Translations under genes and position numbers: made by a program
Source of the DNA: Edaphobacter sp. 4G125
Lineage (GTDB): Bacteria > Acidobacteriota > Terriglobia > Terriglobales > Acidobacteriaceae
DNA length: 64,000 nt
Assembly: GCF_014274685.1 (NCBI RefSeq)
Contig: NZ_CP060393.1
Location: 2,167,501 to 2,231,500 of the forward strand
Direction of reading: 5' to 3'
Notes under the pieces: generated by a model
Databases searched by the model: none
Seen by the model: the letters and a program-made list of their open reading frames with translations, nothing else
Told to the model about the DNA's origin: nothing
Part shown: positions 19,006 through 28,107 of the stretch, one piece after another
Layout: every line of letters begins with the position of its first letter
Numbering within the stretch: the first letter of the stretch is position 1

Positions 19006-19350
19006 ATGCAGACGGAGTTGGTCAAGACAGATGCTGTGGGACTGGAATCGCAACCACTACCCGAAAACGATACGCAGAAGGGGGATGTTTCTCGCATACC
19101 CCTCGAGCGGATGGAAGAGCACCCATTATGGGCGTTGTTATCGCGAATGACAGTTGTTGCGATGGCAGGGATTCCATTGAGCGAGTTCAAAATTGGCGAT
19201 TTGTTGCGCTTGAAGCCAGGAGAGTTGATCGAGAGCGACTGGCAACACACCGAAGATGTCCCGGTTAGGGCTGGTCGTGTTCAGGTGGCCTGGAGCGAGT
19301 TTGAAGTTGCGGACCAGCGCTTGATGGTGCGGCTGACGAGATTGACGTAG
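19006..19350 (+). CDS. FliN-like motor switch protein (SpoA domain), first copy
   Basis: Small protein, 114 residues, with a C-terminal SpoA/FliN-type domain (about 40-112): VVAMAGIPLSEFKIGDLLRLKPGELI, then VRAGRVQVAWSEFEVADQRLMVRLTRL. It sits in the fliL-fliM-fliN-fliO slot but is more divergent than the canonical FliN at 26781. It may form a C-ring FliN ring with the second copy or substitute for a FliM C-terminal domain. The N-terminal 40 residues are unique. Confidence 0.78.
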   Translation: MQTELVKTDAVGLESQPLPENDTQKGDVSRIPLERMEEHPLWALLSRMTVVAMAGIPLSEFKIGDLLRLKPGELIESDWQHTEDVPVRAGRVQVAWSEFEVADQRLMVRLTRLT

Positions 19351-21595: not shown

Positions 21596-22731
21596 GCGGG
21601 CAGGCAACCGAACAGGCAACCCCGCAGAAGAAGAAAAAGGCAAGAGACAAAGGCGACATTGTCCGAAGCCGTGAGCTGCTTTCTGCGATGGCGATGCTGG
21701 GCGGCGTCGTGATGCTCGGAACGATTGCCCATGGATTTTCAGGTACGTGGCAAACGATCTATTTTGAGAGCTTACGTTCGGCCGGTATAGGTAGCACGGA
21801 GGGAGATCAGGCGTGGAGCGAGACCGTTCGTCATATGATTCAGCCGATGTTGCTGCCTGTAGGGCTTGTGCTGATTGCGAGCTTCGGCTGTTCTCTGTTG
21901 GCAGGTGTAGTCCAAAGCGGTGGAGTGCAGGTTCACCCCAATGCGATGGCGTTGAAGCTGGAGCGGTTGAATCCGGTCACTAATCTGAAAAACCTTTTTA
22001 GCCTCCGCCAAACAACGCGGCTGATGAAATCGATGATTCCAGCAGGAATCATGGTGATCCTTGGGTGGGGAGCGTTGAAGGGAGTTGTTCTGTCATCTCC
22101 GGTGATGAGCATGACGCGTTTGCCTGCGACATTTACAAGTGCTTATCACCTTGCACTCGATGCATCGTGGCTGATGCTTCTGTGGTCAGCGCTCGACTAT
22201 GCAGTCGAGTGGAAGAGCTGGAATCAGCGATTGAAGATGAGCAAGCAAGAGGTCCGTGAAGAGATGAAAGAGTCGATGGGAAATCCAGAAATCAAGGGGA
22301 AGATCCGTCGGATTCAAAATGCAATGAGAAGACGTAAGGTCAAGGCGGATCTCTCGCGCGCAAGCGTAGTGATTACAAATCCTACGCACTATGCAGTTGC
22401 GCTGGAGTTCAGTTTTGAGACGATGCAGGCACCGGTTGTTCTGGCGAAGGGGCGTGATCTGCTCGCGGCCGAGATCCGGGAGGAGGCGCAATGGACAGGA
22501 ATCCCCCTGGTTGAAAATCCTCCTTTGGCCCGCAGTCTTTATCGAATGGTTGAGCCGGGGCAGTCCATTCCGTTTGAACTATATGCGGCTGTAGCCGGGA
22601 TTCTGGCCTATCTCTATCGGCAAAGAATGGAAGAACGAATGCGAAGACAACAGCAGACCCAGCGAGCCCCGGCGTGGGGTGCGTATCCCGTTATGGGGGC
22701 TGGCATGCGCGGTGTTGGAGGTGGAATGTGA
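21592..22731 (+). CDS. flhB: Flagellar export switch protein FlhB
   Basis: FlhB, 379 residues. The N-terminus KKKKARDKGDIVRSRE is typical, followed by four transmembrane helices and a cytoplasmic domain. The autocleavage motif NPTH is at about residue 263 (VVITNPTHYAVAL), so the substrate-specificity switch read by FliK should work. The C-terminal tail (RQQQTQRAPAWGAYPVMGAG) is longer and Gly-rich. The stop overlaps the GTG start of flhA. Confidence 0.96.
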   Translation: MSGQATEQATPQKKKKARDKGDIVRSRELLSAMAMLGGVVMLGTIAHGFSGTWQTIYFESLRSAGIGSTEGDQAWSETVRHMIQPMLLPVGLVLIASFGCSLLAGVVQSGGVQVHPNAMALKLERLNPVTNLKNLFSLRQTTRLMKSMIPAGIMVILGWGALKGVVLSSPVMSMTRLPATFTSAYHLALDASWLMLLWSALDYAVEWKSWNQRLKMSKQEVREEMKESMGNPEIKGKIRRIQNAMRRRKVKADLSRASVVITNPTHYAVALEFSFETMQAPVVLAKGRDLLAAEIREEAQWTGIPLVENPPLARSLYRMVEPGQSIPFELYAAVAGILAYLYRQRMEERMRRQQQTQRAPAWGAYPVMGAGMRGVGGGM

Positions 22732-24830
22732 AGATCGAAAGGGCGCAGGGATGGTCCCCGGCCAAATTGCAGGCATTGCTTCTGCCAATTACGACGATTG
22801 GCGTCGTGTTTGTGATGCTGATCCCAATCCCTGGTTTCGTACTGGATCTATTGCTTGCGACTTCGATTACAGCTTCGGTGATCGTGTTTCTCACAGCGGT
22901 TCAAGTTCGACGCGCTGTCGACTTTTCAGTCTTTCCTACGCTGCTTTTATTACTCACCCTATTTCGGCTGTCTCTCAACCTTGCCTCCAGTCGACGGATT
23001 CTGCTGCATGGGCATGAGGGAACGGCTGCAGCCGGTTCAGTAATCGAGGCTTTTGGACAGTTTGTCGTCGGTGGAAATTATGTTGTTGGATTCGTGCTCT
23101 TCCTCACCCTTATCGCAATTCAATTTTTGGTTGTTAGCCATGGAGCAGTGCGAACGGCTGAGGTGACTGCGCGCTTTACGTTGGATGCTCTGCCTGGCAA
23201 GCAGATGGCGATCGATGCGGACATGAATGCTGGTTTGATTGACGAACAGCAAGCGCGGAGACGCCGTCAGGCAATTGCGCGAGAAGCCGAGTTCTATGGA
23301 GCCATGGATGGTGCGGCTCGCTTCAACCAGCGGGATTCAATGGCAACCATTCTGATCACCGTGATCAATATCGTTGCCGGCCTGTTGATTGGGGTGATTC
23401 AACAGGGTGCGGATCTTGCGACGGCTGTAAAGACCTACACCATTCTTACGGTGGGCGATGGCCTGGTAACAATGATTCCTAGTCTTCTGGTTTCCGTTGC
23501 AGGCGGCATTGTGCTGACGAGAGCTTCTTCTGCAGGAGCGCTCGATCAGGAACTGGGGTCACAGCTTCTGAAGGGAAGGACGACGTTATGGATCTCCTGT
23601 GGTGTCCTGATTGTGCTGGCGCTAATTCCAGGACTGCCCAAGATGGCTTTCATTTTGTTGGCGGCCGGAGTAGCGCTCATTGCGCGCACTCTTCCTGAGG
23701 GACAAGCAGTGATCGCAGTCGCAGAAGTAGAAGCCGCTCCTGCAAAGGCAAAGTCTAACGAGATCGCTGCGGGGGAGAATCTTGCTTCATTGCTGAAGAT
23801 TGATGAACTGACTCTGGAGATCGGCTTCCAGCTGATCCCTCTTGTTGATGAGAAGCAAGGTGGCCAGATGCTCAACCGGGTACGGGCGCTTCGCAGGCAC
23901 CTTGCAACAGAGTTGGGGTTCATCGTGCCCCCGATTCATATTACAGACAACCTCCGATTGAAGCCTCGTGAGTATGTCATGAACCTTCGGGGAATTGAGA
24001 TCGCACGATGGCAGACAGAACAGAACTGTCTGCTGGCGGTGAATGCTGATCCTAAGGCAAGAAGCCTTCCGGGAGTCGAGACCACGGAGCCTGCATTTGG
24101 TGTTGCAGCTCGTTGGATTCAACCGGGGCTGGAAGAACAGGCTCTAGCTGCAGGATATTCGGTTGTCGATCAGACGGCTGTCATTGGCACTCACCTGGGA
24201 GAGTTAATCCGGCGTCATGCTCATGAGTTGTTGGGACGGCAGGAGGTCAAACGTCTGCTGGACAACATGAACGAGAGCCACCCGAAGTTGGTGGAAGAAC
24301 TAGTTCCGAAGCTGATGTCGTTGGGCGAGGTGCAGCGCGTTTTGCAACAGCTGTTGCGGGAGCAGGTTTCCATCCGCGATCTAGGAGCCATTCTTGAGGT
24401 GCTAGTTGAGGCGGCGCAGCAATCCAAAGCTGTGGTTCACCTGGTAGAAAGCGTGCGGCAAACGCTGGGCCGCGGTCTCATCCATCCACTTTTGGATGAA
24501 GATGGAGGGCTCAAGGTGCTGATGCTTGATCAGGGCATCGAAAATGAGCTGATTCGTACATTCGATCCGCAGGGGGCGAGCGCGCTTCTCGCGGATGGAT
24601 CGCGTTCTGGGAATATCCCCTCAGATTTCCTGCGACGCGTAGTGAATTCTGTTAAGCACCTAACGGAAACAGGGGTAACATCGGCCCTTCCCGTGCTTCT
24701 ATGTTCGAGTCCGGGGCGCTATTACATGCGTCGCTGGTTGGAGCCGTTTCTTCCAAAGCTAACCGTGCTCTCTCCTGTTGAAATTCCACCGGAGATCAGG
24801 GTAAGGAGCATCGGCACGGTCGGTTCTTGA
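22728..24830 (+). CDS. flhA: Flagellar export-gate protein FlhA
   Basis: FlhA, 700 residues, usual length. The N-terminal half has about eight transmembrane helices. It includes the FHIPEP region (LLLLTLFRLSLNLASSRRILL, GNYVVGFVLFLTLIAIQFLVVSHGAVRTAEVTARFTLDALPGKQMAIDAD). The C-terminal half is the cytoplasmic ring that docks chaperone-substrate complexes. The GTG at 22728 has GGAGGTG upstream and overlaps the flhB stop by 4 bases. Confidence 0.95.
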   Translation: MKIERAQGWSPAKLQALLLPITTIGVVFVMLIPIPGFVLDLLLATSITASVIVFLTAVQVRRAVDFSVFPTLLLLLTLFRLSLNLASSRRILLHGHEGTAAAGSVIEAFGQFVVGGNYVVGFVLFLTLIAIQFLVVSHGAVRTAEVTARFTLDALPGKQMAIDADMNAGLIDEQQARRRRQAIAREAEFYGAMDGAARFNQRDSMATILITVINIVAGLLIGVIQQGADLATAVKTYTILTVGDGLVTMIPSLLVSVAGGIVLTRASSAGALDQELGSQLLKGRTTLWISCGVLIVLALIPGLPKMAFILLAAGVALIARTLPEGQAVIAVAEVEAAPAKAKSNEIAAGENLASLLKIDELTLEIGFQLIPLVDEKQGGQMLNRVRALRRHLATELGFIVPPIHITDNLRLKPREYVMNLRGIEIARWQTEQNCLLAVNADPKARSLPGVETTEPAFGVAARWIQPGLEEQALAAGYSVVDQTAVIGTHLGELIRRHAHELLGRQEVKRLLDNMNESHPKLVEELVPKLMSLGEVQRVLQQLLREQVSIRDLGAILEVLVEAAQQSKAVVHLVESVRQTLGRGLIHPLLDEDGGLKVLMLDQGIENELIRTFDPQGASALLADGSRSGNIPSDFLRRVVNSVKHLTETGVTSALPVLLCSSPGRYYMRRWLEPFLPKLTVLSPVEIPPEIRVRSIGTVGS

Positions 24831-24861: not shown

Positions 24862-25743
24862 ATGAATACGGGAAGATCGGTATCGCTGACAAATAGTGCG
24901 ACACCTCAGTGGTTGGGAGAGATAAGCGAGGAGGCTGGAGGAATGCTCGCGGGAAGATCACTCAGGAAAGAAGGGAATGAAGCGGGTATCGGAGTTGCAG
25001 ACACGGGCGAAAGGGACAAGCTGCTGTTGGAGCATCTGCCGATAGTTCGATACATTGCGCGTCGCATCCATGAGCGCCTGCCGCAACATGTCGATCTGGA
25101 AGACTTGGTTTCAGCAGGTATCGTGGGTTTGATCGATGCATTTTCGAAGTTTGATCACACGAAGAAAGTTCAATTCAAAAGCTACGCTCAGTTTCGGGTT
25201 CGAGGAGCCATCCTCGACTCACTGCGTACGTTGGACTGGAGCCCTCGTGAACTTCGACGGAAGGGGAGAGCTGTTGAAGAGGCCATTCGTGCAGTGACCC
25301 AACGGATAAGTCGTGCTCCTTCGGAGCAGGAGATTGCCACTGAGCTGAAGCTGTCACTTGCCGAATATCAACAGCTGCTTGGGGACCTGAAAGGACTCGA
25401 GATTGGAAGCCTGCACATGGAGCGCTCAGAGGATTCGGGTGATGAGGAGCTGGCTTACATTCCGGGGTCTCCGGAAGAAGACCCCTTATTTCGCTGCCTG
25501 AAAGGAGAGATGAAGCAGAGACTGGCTGATGCGATTGATACCTTACCCGAAAAGGAGCGGATGGTTCTTACTTTGTACTACTACGAGGAGCTGACGATGA
25601 AGGAGATCGGACTGACTCTTGGAGTGGTGGAGTCGCGTGTCTCCCAGATTCATTCTTCTGCGGTTCTGCGTCTGCGAAGTGCTCTCGCGACTCCGGGCGC
25701 TACAGGCGTCAGTAAAGAGGCGGAAGGGAGACGCAGAACATAA
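24862..25743 (+). CDS. fliA: Flagellar sigma factor FliA (sigma-28)
   Basis: Sigma factor of the FliA/WhiG group, 293 residues. The region-2 segment LPIVRYIARRIHERLPQHVDLEDLVSAGIVGLIDAFSKFD and FKSYAQFRVRGAILDSLRTLDW are diagnostic. Region 3 (EEAIRAVTQRISRAPSEQEIATEL) and region 4 (LPEKERMVLTLYYYEELTMKEIGLTLGVVESRVSQIHSSAVLRLR) are intact. The 50-residue N-terminal extension is longer than in enterobacteria. It should recognise the TAAAGTTT/GCCGATGA promoter before flgM at 58.9 kb and be inhibited by that FlgM. flhF and flhG, which usually lie between flhA and fliA, are absent. Confidence 0.94.
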   Translation: MNTGRSVSLTNSATPQWLGEISEEAGGMLAGRSLRKEGNEAGIGVADTGERDKLLLEHLPIVRYIARRIHERLPQHVDLEDLVSAGIVGLIDAFSKFDHTKKVQFKSYAQFRVRGAILDSLRTLDWSPRELRRKGRAVEEAIRAVTQRISRAPSEQEIATELKLSLAEYQQLLGDLKGLEIGSLHMERSEDSGDEELAYIPGSPEEDPLFRCLKGEMKQRLADAIDTLPEKERMVLTLYYYEELTMKEIGLTLGVVESRVSQIHSSAVLRLRSALATPGATGVSKEAEGRRRT

Positions 25744-25775: not shown

Positions 25776-26768
25776 ATGGAAAAGAAACTTGGGCAGGAAG
25801 ACATCGACGCACTGTTTGCCGCTGCAAATGCTTCAGCAAAGGCCAAAACGACAGAGGTGGATAAGGGGCCGGAAAAGTATGTTTTTAGCCGGGCCGGACA
25901 GATCAGTAATGACCAGATGAGAGCTATTACGACGGTGAACGATCTCTTCGCCAGAAACCTAATGCACTCTTTGGGCGGATGGTTGCGGACGCCGTTTCGC
26001 GTCAAGCTGGTTGCGGGTGAACAGCTTCCGTTCAGTGAGTTTCTGGAGAGATTGTCGCCCATGACTTATATCTGCTCGGTGAGGCTGGAGCCCCTGGGTG
26101 CAGTTGGTTTGCTGGAACTGGACCTGGGGCTGGTCGCTCCCATTGTGGATGTGCTGCTTGGCGGTATCGGTCGATCGAGTACGGTTCGTGAGCTTACAGA
26201 TATTGAAGAGACGATCATGCGGTCGGTAGTCGAAATGGTTGGGCAGGAGCTTACGTTGGCCTGGCAGCCGGTTGGTCTCGAGTTCGTGCTGGAAAAGCGA
26301 GAGACGGAAGCCCAGGCAGCCCGAATGATGACTCTCGGAGAGAAGACGCTCTGCGTGAGCTTTGAAGTGAGGATGCCTGAGATTCAGGGCGGGCTAAATC
26401 TTTGTCTACCTGCGGTCGTTTTGAACGCAATCCTTCGACGGCTGATTTCGGAAGGAGACAGACCGCGACGAAGATCGAAGGAGTCAGCAACGCGCATGCG
26501 AGAGTCTGTGAAAGATGCAAGTGTGGAGGTCGTGCTACAACTTCCTGCGATCAAATTGCGCGCCTCAGAGATTGCGGAGTTGGAGCCGGGGTCTATCCTG
26601 CGTTTTGCCGTGCCGAAGCATCAAAGATCTGACCTGATCATTGGAGGATTATTCATGGGAAAGGCCCTCCCTGTGCGAAGCGGGGAACACAGGGCAGCAA
26701 GGTTGGAGGAGATGGTTCATGTGACCGAGCAGGTTATCCAAAATTCACCAGAGATGACGATCCATTGA
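25776..26768 (+). CDS. fliM: Flagellar motor switch protein FliM
   Basis: FliM, 330 residues. The N-terminal EKKLGQEDIDALFAAA is the CheY-P-binding LSQxEIDALL-like peptide. The middle CheC-like domain has NDLFARNLMHSLGGWLRTPFRVKLVAGEQLPFSEFLERLSPMTYICSV. The C-terminal SpoA domain begins near 245 (ASVEVVLQLPAIKLRASEIAELEPGSILRF). It forms the C ring between FliG and FliN. Placed after fliA rather than between fliL and fliN, an unusual order. Confidence 0.94.
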   Translation: MEKKLGQEDIDALFAAANASAKAKTTEVDKGPEKYVFSRAGQISNDQMRAITTVNDLFARNLMHSLGGWLRTPFRVKLVAGEQLPFSEFLERLSPMTYICSVRLEPLGAVGLLELDLGLVAPIVDVLLGGIGRSSTVRELTDIEETIMRSVVEMVGQELTLAWQPVGLEFVLEKRETEAQAARMMTLGEKTLCVSFEVRMPEIQGGLNLCLPAVVLNAILRRLISEGDRPRRRSKESATRMRESVKDASVEVVLQLPAIKLRASEIAELEPGSILRFAVPKHQRSDLIIGGLFMGKALPVRSGEHRAARLEEMVHVTEQVIQNSPEMTIH

Positions 26769-26780
26769 AAAGGGGATGAG

Positions 26781-27089
26781 ATGGAACAGGAGATTACAGC
26801 TAACGAACAAGCGTCGTTGGACATGAAGATGGACATTCTTTGCGATATCGAACTTGATGCCACTCTGCGGTTTGGGTCACGCGAGATGACGTTACAAGAA
26901 GTGCTTGAGCTCGGTCCTGGAAGTGTTCTGGAGTTGGATAGGCATGTGAGCGAGCCGATGGACCTGGTGGTTGGAGACAGGATTGTTGCTCGGGGAGAGG
27001 TTGTTGTCTCGAATGGAAATTTTGCGCTTCGGGTGATTGAGGTAGCGACACCGCAACTGCGACTGGAGAGTATTCGATGCTTTTTCTAG
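26781..27089 (+). CDS. fliN: Flagellar motor switch protein FliN, second copy
   Basis: Canonical FliN, 102 residues. The SpoA domain covers residues 18-95: DILCDIELDATLRFGSREMTLQEVLELGPGSVLELDRHVSEPMDLVVGDRIVARGEVVVSNGNFALRV. It forms the base of the C ring and docks FliH. Directly after fliM (12-base gap) and overlapping the possible earliest start of the next gene. A second, divergent FliN-like gene is at 19006. Confidence 0.93.
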   Translation: MEQEITANEQASLDMKMDILCDIELDATLRFGSREMTLQEVLELGPGSVLELDRHVSEPMDLVVGDRIVARGEVVVSNGNFALRVIEVATPQLRLESIRCFF

Positions 27090-27112
27090 GGAAGAAGATG
27101 GAGGAGCATGGC

Positions 27113-28048
27113 ATGGACGTTTCGATGGTGGATTCGCCTGAGGTTGCTTCTTCGATATGGAAGGACGATTTCTATTCTTCGTCGGTCATTCCACATGTCC
27201 CTGCACTTTCGAATTCGGGCCGAAGGGTTTGCGGAAATATTCAGTGTACAGGCTCATGGTCTGCGCCCTGGCGAAACCGTAAGCGGCCGGTTTTCGAAAC
27301 ACAGTGGGGATGCAGTGGCCGGTGTGTTCTAGAGCTTGTCCGCGCCGCACTCAGACGGGAGTCTGGAGAAAAAGCGGTCGATGAAGATGTTTCTCAACAC
27401 CAACACCGTATGCCTTTGGGGCTGTTGCTTCTATCGCAGGGGTGGATTACACATTCGCAACTACAGAATGCGCTGAGAATCCAGAGAGGGCAGGGCGGCC
27501 GTATAGGGGAGATCCTGATTGCGGAGTGCGGCGTGAATGCTGATTATGTTGCTCGTGGGTTGAGCCTGCAATGGAATCGGCCGGTGCTTGGTGCCCACGG
27601 ATTTTCCCCACGATCAATGGCTTTGGTCATGCCGAAGGTATTTGTGGAGCAGTTCGGAATGCTACCCCTTCGAGTGGCAGGGTCTCGCATCCTCTATGTT
27701 GGTTTTGAAGATCGTCCGGATGCCTCTGTACTTTTCGGCTTAGAGCGGATGTCGGAACTTCGCGTCGAAAGTGGTTTGGTCAAAACGGAAGAGTACCACG
27801 CAGCTCTTAGATCTCTTCTGGAAGATAAAGTCGTAGAGACGCGGGAGGAATTCTGTGGTGAAGTCGATGCACTAGCCGTGAGAATCACAGCAGTGCTGGA
27901 GCAGAAACAGCCCGTGGCCTCCAGGCTTGTACGAATGCGCCAGTTTTACTGGTTGCGGCTTTGGCTCGAAACCAGGTCTTTGAGAGGATTCGGCAACTTG
28001 CCGCAAAGTAGCGAAGACATGATGGACTATGTTTTCCGAATGAGCTGA
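27113..28048 (+). CDS. Zinc-ribbon plus MshEN-like protein, unknown flagellar role
   Basis: Protein of about 311 residues, last in the flagellar operon. Residues 40-71 have four cysteines (CGNIQC and CSGRC), spaced like a zinc ribbon. Residues about 101-240 resemble the MshEN/GspE N-terminal domain, known in some proteins to bind cyclic di-GMP: PLGLLLLSQGWITHSQLQNALRIQ, then GRIGEILIAECGVNADYV. The second RxGxxL repeat keeps its Arg; in the first repeat Pro replaces it. A C-terminal helical tail follows. There is no ATPase domain. I start at ATG 27113 because GGAGGA lies 6 bases upstream; 27077 and 27098 are alternatives. Confidence 0.65.
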   Translation: MDVSMVDSPEVASSIWKDDFYSSSVIPHVPALSNSGRRVCGNIQCTGSWSAPWRNRKRPVFETQWGCSGRCVLELVRAALRRESGEKAVDEDVSQHQHRMPLGLLLLSQGWITHSQLQNALRIQRGQGGRIGEILIAECGVNADYVARGLSLQWNRPVLGAHGFSPRSMALVMPKVFVEQFGMLPLRVAGSRILYVGFEDRPDASVLFGLERMSELRVESGLVKTEEYHAALRSLLEDKVVETREEFCGEVDALAVRITAVLEQKQPVASRLVRMRQFYWLRLWLETRSLRGFGNLPQSSEDMMDYVFRMS

Positions 28049-28059
28049 CCTCCAAAGAT

Positions 28060-28090
28060 CAAGGGCAGAGAACTACGTTCTCTGCCCTTG
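28060..28090. terminator. Strong hairpin between converging transcripts
   Basis: A perfect 14-bp stem (28060-28073 with 28077-28090) with a TAC loop. T-tracts are poor on both sides, but the position between the last flagellar gene and a converging gene fits a bidirectional terminator. Confidence 0.7.
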
Positions 28091-28107
28091 TCGTAAAAGA
28101 ATAAATT

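Follow-up and report, generated by a model that had tools for sequence, protein, structure and literature searches.

The genome of Edaphobacter sp. 4G125 gives 13 GGDEF matches, whereas PilZ is matched by just two short frames, of 127 and 172 aa, and no long YcgR-like PilZ frame is seen, which raises the question of how c-di-GMP would reach the flagellum. Flagellin is matched twice in this genome and MotB once. The phylum concerned, the Acidobacteriota, consists of abundant soil bacteria. The accessible part of a paper on soil motility (PMC11095265) contains no passage on the genera concerned. The window analysed here, a stretch of 64 000 nucleotides, holds a flagellar gene cluster whose last plus-strand gene encodes a protein with a four-Cys ribbon and an MshEN domain (the ribbon–MshEN protein). 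The original prediction was that this protein may be a c-di-GMP-responsive motor brake, resembling YcgR but of another family. Does it bind the nucleotide, and what might it do at the flagellum?

Sequence sets and searches

Column counts for the window's own group were made on 65 sequences, namely the window protein and 64 of 65 named loci, with L094 left out as a non-member. Alignment A2 (60 sequences; the window protein and 59 of the 65 named loci) omits, besides L094, three near repeats (L038, L042 and L075) and two short sequences (L089 and L090). Alignment A3 consists of 33 diverse members: the window protein, 14 named loci and 18 of 20 fetched loci, these 18 belonging to other classes according to kinship labels. 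L146 and L163 were left out of A3 as incomplete and the non-flagellar L161 was kept. The start codon was analysed at 30 same-genus loci, which rank highest among 52 matches in 62 genus genomes. The distribution of the family was followed in genomes of Acidobacteriota, using a phylum sample of 396 genomes, each at least 80% complete, that form part of a larger collection. With a second profile, members (E ≤ 6.7e-53) stood apart from PilB-like frames (E ≥ 1.2e-39). Since the phylum profile searches scored only a few top candidates in each genome, absences in this sample are not certain. All linkage counts derive from related genomes and are not independent events.

Gene structure

The features of the locus are collected in Table 1. 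Of the interval first proposed for the gene, 27113–28048, the end was confirmed and the start was not. The Met at 27113 is internal and was dropped as a start because an in-frame ATG lies upstream at 27077, at an offset inside the end of fliN that all 30 loci examined in the genus share (30/30), that of the window being one of them. Together with the GGAGAG upstream, this common offset favours 27077, which on sequence grounds is almost certainly the true start. The N-terminal tail is short or absent in distant members. Within the genus it carries a near-constant D-x-Y (27167–27175; D31 and Y33 each in 28 of 30 loci), possibly a docking motif.

Table 1. Features of the ribbon–MshEN gene and its surroundings, in window coordinates.
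Feature	Position	Strand	Basis and remarks
flhA	22674–24830	+	PF00771, E 3.6e-242
Sigma-70-family factor, probably fliA	24862–25743	+	Sigma70_r2, r3 and r4 matches; named by context
fliM	25776–26768	+	PF02154, E 2e-38
fliN	26781–27089	+	PF01052, E 1.8e-23
GGAGAG, likely ribosome-binding site	27065–27070	+	Sequence; inside fliN
Ribbon–MshEN gene, whole	27077–28048	+	ORF list, ATG offset; 323 aa and stop; ribbon, MshEN and C-terminal domain
Overlap with fliN end, 13 nt	27077–27089	+	Suggests translational coupling
Variable N-terminal tail, aa 1–46	27077–27214	+	Low model confidence
Four-Cys ribbon, C52-x4-C57 ... C79-x3-C83	27230–27325	+	Cys conservation
MshEN motif I, aa 113–136	27413–27484	+	NF053729, column counts; Pro113 replaces first Arg
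MshEN motif II, aa 142–165	27500–27571	+	NF053729, column counts
MshEN C-terminal subdomain, aa 170–250	27584–27826	+	AlphaFold model; VIA Z 11.9–12.4 over aa 110–250
C-terminal beta-alpha-beta-beta-beta domain, aa 253–323	27833–28045	+	AlphaFold model, A3; invariant W292
Inverted repeat, 14-bp perfect stem	28057–28092	.	Fold −26.1 kcal/mol, z −6.6; between convergent genes

MshEN domain

The presence of an MshEN domain, as originally proposed, was borne out by HMM search, by phmmer and by the predicted fold. The NCBIfam model NF053729 (MshE-related c-di-GMP domain) matches aa 113–164 with 47.6 bits (cut-off 38, E 1e-12) and reaches E ≤ 0.01 in all 33 members of A3. A phmmer search against the PDB returned PilF, PilB and MshE. 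A Pfam search of the window protein returned no match up to E 10, so the cut-off of PF05157 was not reached; this family matches 23 of the 33 diverse members at E ≤ 0.1, and Pfam as the sole test for MshEN was rejected on account of the missed window protein. Both 24-residue motifs and the 5-residue linker are present, with departures at positions I-1, II-10 and II-17.

The AlphaFold model computed from the 60-sequence alignment (pLDDT 85.5, pTM 0.80) is poorly predicted in the N-terminal tail and includes both the MshEN_N four-helix bundle and the MshEN_C subdomain. All 20 Foldseek matches at E ≤ 0.001 are N-terminal domains of PilF, PilB, MshE and XpsE; the best of them is c-di-GMP-bound PilF-GSPIIB (E 1.4e-9), and MshE 5htl_B scores E 1.3e-7. 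In VIA, aa 110–250 superpose on PilF-GSPIIB and on MshE: PDB entry 9glg_A gave Z 12.4 and an r.m.s.d. of 2.9 over 135 residues, and 5htl_B gave Z 11.9 and an r.m.s.d. of 2.9 over 134 residues. The modelled protein thus contains a complete predicted MshEN fold. As foreseen, an ATPase is absent: in this 323-aa protein no RecA-type ATPase was matched by Pfam, and no Walker A motif (G-x4-GK[ST]) was found when the translation was read by eye.

Ligand-site residues

The original prediction that one RxGxxL repeat has lost its Arg proved correct, motif I having Pro113 where motif II keeps R142. All 65 sequences of the window's own group have Pro at position 1 of motif I, and H110, R111, L114 and G115 are likewise kept in every one (65/65 each). 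In A3 this position is Pro in 15/15 sequences of the window group, and in the 18 others it is Arg (nine), Lys (six), Leu (two) or Thr (one). Eight columns of A3 are invariant: C52, C79, C83, G115, Q136, G144, Q165 and W292. G115 and G144 occupy position 3, and Q136 and Q165 position 24, of motifs I and II, respectively; Gly-3 and Gln-24 of both motifs contact c-di-GMP in MshE (PMC5013675, PMC11731258).

Reading the lost Arg as lost binding was considered and found not to be compelling, given the Pro of PilF GSPII-C, the relaxed motif and the Arg or Lys of 15 of the 18 other-class members. Pro335 of PilF GSPII-C was aligned with Pro113 by phmmer, and the affinity of this domain for c-di-GMP is about equal to that of MshE (PMC11731258); it has three motifs, and the accessible text of that paper does not state which pair holds the ligand. 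The relaxed MshEN motif permits Pro at position 1 (PMC5013675). Because a domain with Pro335 binds and the relaxed motif allows Pro, the residue at position 1 of motif I can be regarded as compatible with c-di-GMP binding. R111 corresponds by numbering to MshE Arg7, part of a positive patch (PMC5013675), and is Arg in nine of the 18 other-class members.

Other positions are less canonical and count against binding. Two of them, in motif II, go beyond the original prediction: position 10 is Cys151 in 28 of 31 close relatives, and at position 17 (residue 158) Val or Ile replaces Leu in 59 of 60 sequences of A2 and in 15 of the 18 other-class members. For the Asp that contacts guanine in MshE and PilF the alignment offers no firm counterpart in the family; the aligned residue 212 is Asp in 8/15 sequences of the window group and 1/18 of the others. 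XpsE and X. citri PilB are described, in the source text available, as having the same fold with the motif lost or lacking. Weighing sequence and fold together, we consider that the ribbon–MshEN protein very probably binds c-di-GMP.

Ribbon and C-terminal domain

Both Cys pairs of the CxxxxC/CxxxC ribbon named in the original prediction are present and conserved. The window protein and the 64 named loci all keep C52, C79 and C83 (65/65), as do the members of A3 (33/33); C57 is found in 62/65 of the former. The Pfam ribbon families gave no match to the window protein, and the Foldseek and VIA lists for the full model are filled by the MshEN and C-terminal parts. The ribbon is predicted from its cysteines to bind metal.

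A fold search with the C-terminal domain gave no clear match (the highest Z, 5.9, is of a common size), and PilB and GspE were absent among the 50 matches listed. A remnant of the PilB N2 domain was considered as a possible explanation: against N2 the profile probability was 11% for the 33 members, 0.1% for the window group (15 sequences) and 43% for the 18 other-class members (E 2.5e-4), the last a weak match in register with the 'SDIH' region, and alignment to whole PilB gave 0.1% and hence no support; N2 alone is suggestive only for the 18. Weak Pfam matches among the 33 members were to DUF4388 in five (best E 0.0025) and DUF2949 in three. Profile comparison of the MshEN part with PilB-like ATPases of the phylum gave E 9.8e-23 over 147 columns. 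A truncated ATPase can tentatively be suggested as the ancestor of the protein. Across the organism's own genome, the sole PF05157 match is a PilB-like 550-aa frame with a Walker-type motif.

Flagellar cluster in the window

The position directly after fliM and fliN, as first described, is upheld by the gene order (flhA, the sigma factor gene, fliM, fliN and then the ribbon–MshEN gene) and by Pfam matches. The ORF preceding flhA was taken by eye for flhB. The cluster also contains flgC, fliF, fliG, fliI, flgE, fliL and fliP, together with a weaker fliH match below the cut-off, and may form one operon. The cluster encodes a second FliN-like protein (19006–19350; PF01052, E 4.5e-9), the gene of which lies upstream of fliP. 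Beyond the inverted repeat that follows the ribbon–MshEN gene, the convergent gene carries a peptidoglycan-binding domain. The repeat is possibly a terminator for both strands; despite its strong folding it is absent from the list returned by a simple scan for T-tract terminators.

Distribution and linkage

A fliN stop lies no more than 200 nt upstream of the ribbon–MshEN gene at 62 of the 65 named loci. At the remaining three, fliN lies at 295 nt (L095), the gene is 216 bases from a contig end with no fliN match (L091) or the locus is the non-member L094. Within the genus, 50 of 62 genomes give a strong match to the ribbon–MshEN protein, and 45 of 45 fliM genes of the window type (E ≤ 1e-32) have the gene within 3 kb. 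Nine genomes lack both genes, three (G059, G060 and G061) have a diverged fliM only and one (G025) has the ribbon–MshEN gene with no PF02154 match.

The gene was found in 58 of the 396 phylum genomes and fliM above the cut-off in 108. All 58 member genomes have fliM (Fisher p about 8e-40, computed over related genomes), and in 51 of them fliM lies within 5 kb. The other seven are G289 and G253, where the gene is at contig ends, G020, G281, G320 and G252, where fliN is adjacent and fliM is elsewhere, and G288. With G021, G033 and G051 added to G020, G281, G320 and G252, seven genomes keep the gene beside fliN while fliM sits elsewhere. In G288 (L161:6249–7070) the gene has secF and tatD, not flagellar genes, as its neighbours; apart from this one exception among the 58, the counts for fliN and fliM agree with the flagellar linkage that the original prediction expected of homologues. 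Among members outside the window's family (20 of 21 examined), a fliN match occurs on 17 loci and a flgE/F/G-like match on 18, and many members have the gene between fliN and flgE/F/G-like rod genes.

No member was found in 50 of the 108 fliM genomes, although such absences are not certain; examination of flagellar matches at 11 loci from these 50 revealed none there. In G430 the order of the cluster is similar, with about 113 nt between the fliN match and the next rod-gene match, and the ribbon–MshEN gene is missing. Since the gene stays with fliN in the seven genomes with fliM elsewhere and is missing from one similar cluster, it seems to be flagellar yet accessory and dispensable. Seven diverged second flagellar clusters found in some genomes of the genus (L102, L104, L105, L107, L109, L110 and L111) contained no member when searched with a wider profile.

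Several loci show further arrangements. Seven clusters without fliM have the order sigma gene, fliN, ribbon–MshEN gene (L096, L097, L098, L100, L164, L166 and L167), one in each of seven genomes with a fliM elsewhere; in five of these genomes that other place was fetched (L099, L106, L108, L113 and L165), and fliM lies there near fliN-like matches. In L104, one of the second clusters, fliN is followed by an HDOD gene (PF08668, E 4e-14) ahead of the next rod gene, similar frames being seen by eye in others; in another class, an HDOD gene (L144:5314–6276, E 1.2e-61) separates fliN from the ribbon–MshEN gene. At L101:6963–8303 in G061, a frame that by eye resembles a sigma-54 activator continues into the last ~55 aa of a ribbon–MshEN gene, as though a deletion had taken out what lies between the two ends of the flagellar cluster; G061 retains a diverged second flagellar set (L102). 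In L041 / L112 (G025, a MAG) flhA and the sigma gene are missing, and the start of FlhB directly adjoins the FliM terminus; this is either a real deletion or an assembly fault.

Comparison with known systems

The nearest known relatives are the N-terminal MshEN (GSPII) domains of MshE, PilF and PilB. These share with the ribbon–MshEN protein the predicted fold (Z 11.9–12.4), the 53-residue tandem motif and the Gly and Gln residues that contact the ligand. In contrast to them, the ribbon–MshEN protein has no ATPase, a ribbon in front and a small domain behind, and its gene lies in flagellar clusters rather than in pilus or secretion operons. NfrB, a c-di-GMP-activated glycosyltransferase of E. 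coli, likewise carries MshEN on a non-ATPase; it is described as serving exopolysaccharide synthesis, whereas the ribbon–MshEN protein has no glycosyltransferase. In its MshEN part the window protein matches the NfrB model with E 1.3e-9, a score well short of the cut-off that the model sets for the whole protein. M. xanthus FrgA and P. aeruginosa PA3740 are MshEN proteins outside the ATPases that are linked to motility or chemotaxis, and MshEN is also joined with CheA, CheX, REC and other domains (PMC5013675); the accessible text on FrgA, PA3740 and the CheA and CheX proteins, compared here by description only, mentions no ribbon or C-ring linkage.

Among PilZ proteins, MotI and FlgZ are motor brakes of the YcgR type. 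Such brakes, which respond to c-di-GMP by acting on the motor through FliG, FliM or MotA, would resemble the ribbon–MshEN protein in being c-di-GMP receptors at the motor if our best reading is right. Their receptor fold is unrelated, and the ribbon–MshEN gene differs in lying inside the structural cluster after fliN. YcgR itself is a known flagellar c-di-GMP effector (PMC12713396). Pfam gave no PilZ match to the window protein at E 10. Among the openly readable papers listed on MshEN, flagella, zinc, FliN and Acidobacteriota, none was seen to describe a ribbon–MshEN flagellar protein. MshEN outside ATPases is thus already known, and the flagellar ribbon–MshEN family seems to be undescribed.

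Function of the ribbon–MshEN protein

Our best explanation, to which we give an even chance, is that the ribbon–MshEN protein is a flagellar c-di-GMP receptor, probably at the C-ring near FliN, that lowers or biases motor output. It would be co-produced with FliN from the overlapping genes and would most likely reside at the cytoplasmic C-ring close to FliN. One molecule of c-di-GMP is most likely bound by MshEN, between its two 24-residue motifs; the ribbon may be a structural zinc module or a docking surface, and the C-terminal domain is a likely partner-binding or output part. Binding of the ligand would change the contact with the C-ring and so lower or bias motor output. FliN or the edge of the C-ring is suggested as the partner by the 13-nt overlap and by the gene staying with fliN in seven genomes. 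The parts of this explanation differ in strength: we are confident that the function is flagellar, whether it acts at the C-ring or motor, and not on export or expression, is finely balanced, and a braking direction of the effect is a reasonable guess. The proposal of a c-di-GMP-responsive protein outside the YcgR family is sustained as far as sequence and predicted fold can carry it.

c-di-GMP might instead govern flagellar export or assembly, through the FliN–FliH–FliI docking site or the export gate, rather than rotation. FliN docks FliH, and the place of many members between fliN and rod genes would suit such a role. MshE and PA14_29490, both MshEN ATPases, power machinery for secretion or pili, and FliI, the ATPase of flagellar export, is reportedly inhibited by c-di-GMP (PMC5013675); the ND1 subdomain of GspE and EpsE is described as binding the platform protein. 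The ribbon–MshEN protein, however, has no ATPase, and its link to export genes consists of the shared cluster; we regard this reading, the main rival to our best explanation, as possible but rather unlikely. The chance that the protein is a flagellar structural or assembly factor in which MshEN no longer binds c-di-GMP appears small. Pro113, Cys151 and Val158 deviate from the strict motif and homologous folds without the motif have been described, but every member of A3 keeps Gly-3 and Gln-24 in each motif (33/33), most other-class members (15 of 18) have Arg or Lys at position 1 of motif I, and an essential structural part is unlikely in view of the G430 cluster, which does without the gene.

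Small four-Cys ribbons often bind nucleic acid, and a sigma factor gene lies close by, so a regulator of flagellar gene expression can be envisaged, with the ribbon as its contact to nucleic acid, a sigma factor or an anti-sigma factor. The 33 members gave single weak matches to DNA-binding families (NgoFVII_C, E 0.013; HcaR, E 0.0036), whereas the window protein gave none at E 10 and its immediate neighbour is fliN; we consider a role of this kind very unlikely. Least probable of all is a non-flagellar function with the gene only carried along in the cluster, as the isolated member in G288 might suggest, since fliM is present in every member genome and the linkage to fliN is kept where fliM sits elsewhere.

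Because the gene lies mostly beside fliN in several classes, the ribbon–MshEN protein is a good candidate for a new form of flagellar control. More tentatively, and with some doubt, it may be a pilus or secretion regulatory module that was freed from its ATPase and became a standing accessory subunit of the C-ring in Acidobacteriota, reading c-di-GMP directly at FliN. On this tentative reading the effector family would be independent of PilZ and perhaps older than the classes of the phylum, and in the window's class a fixed change to Pro would have retuned the ligand pocket. A receptor domain encoded beside fliN would offer, for several classes, a concrete answer to how c-di-GMP reaches the flagellum. 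If our best explanation holds, flagellar c-di-GMP effectors would gain an MshEN-based class beside their best-known representatives, the PilZ proteins YcgR and its kin, and one receptor fold would link pilus and flagellar control. The family also has a bearing on the MshEN code, with Pro fixed at position 1 of motif I in one group and mostly Arg or Lys in the other classes.
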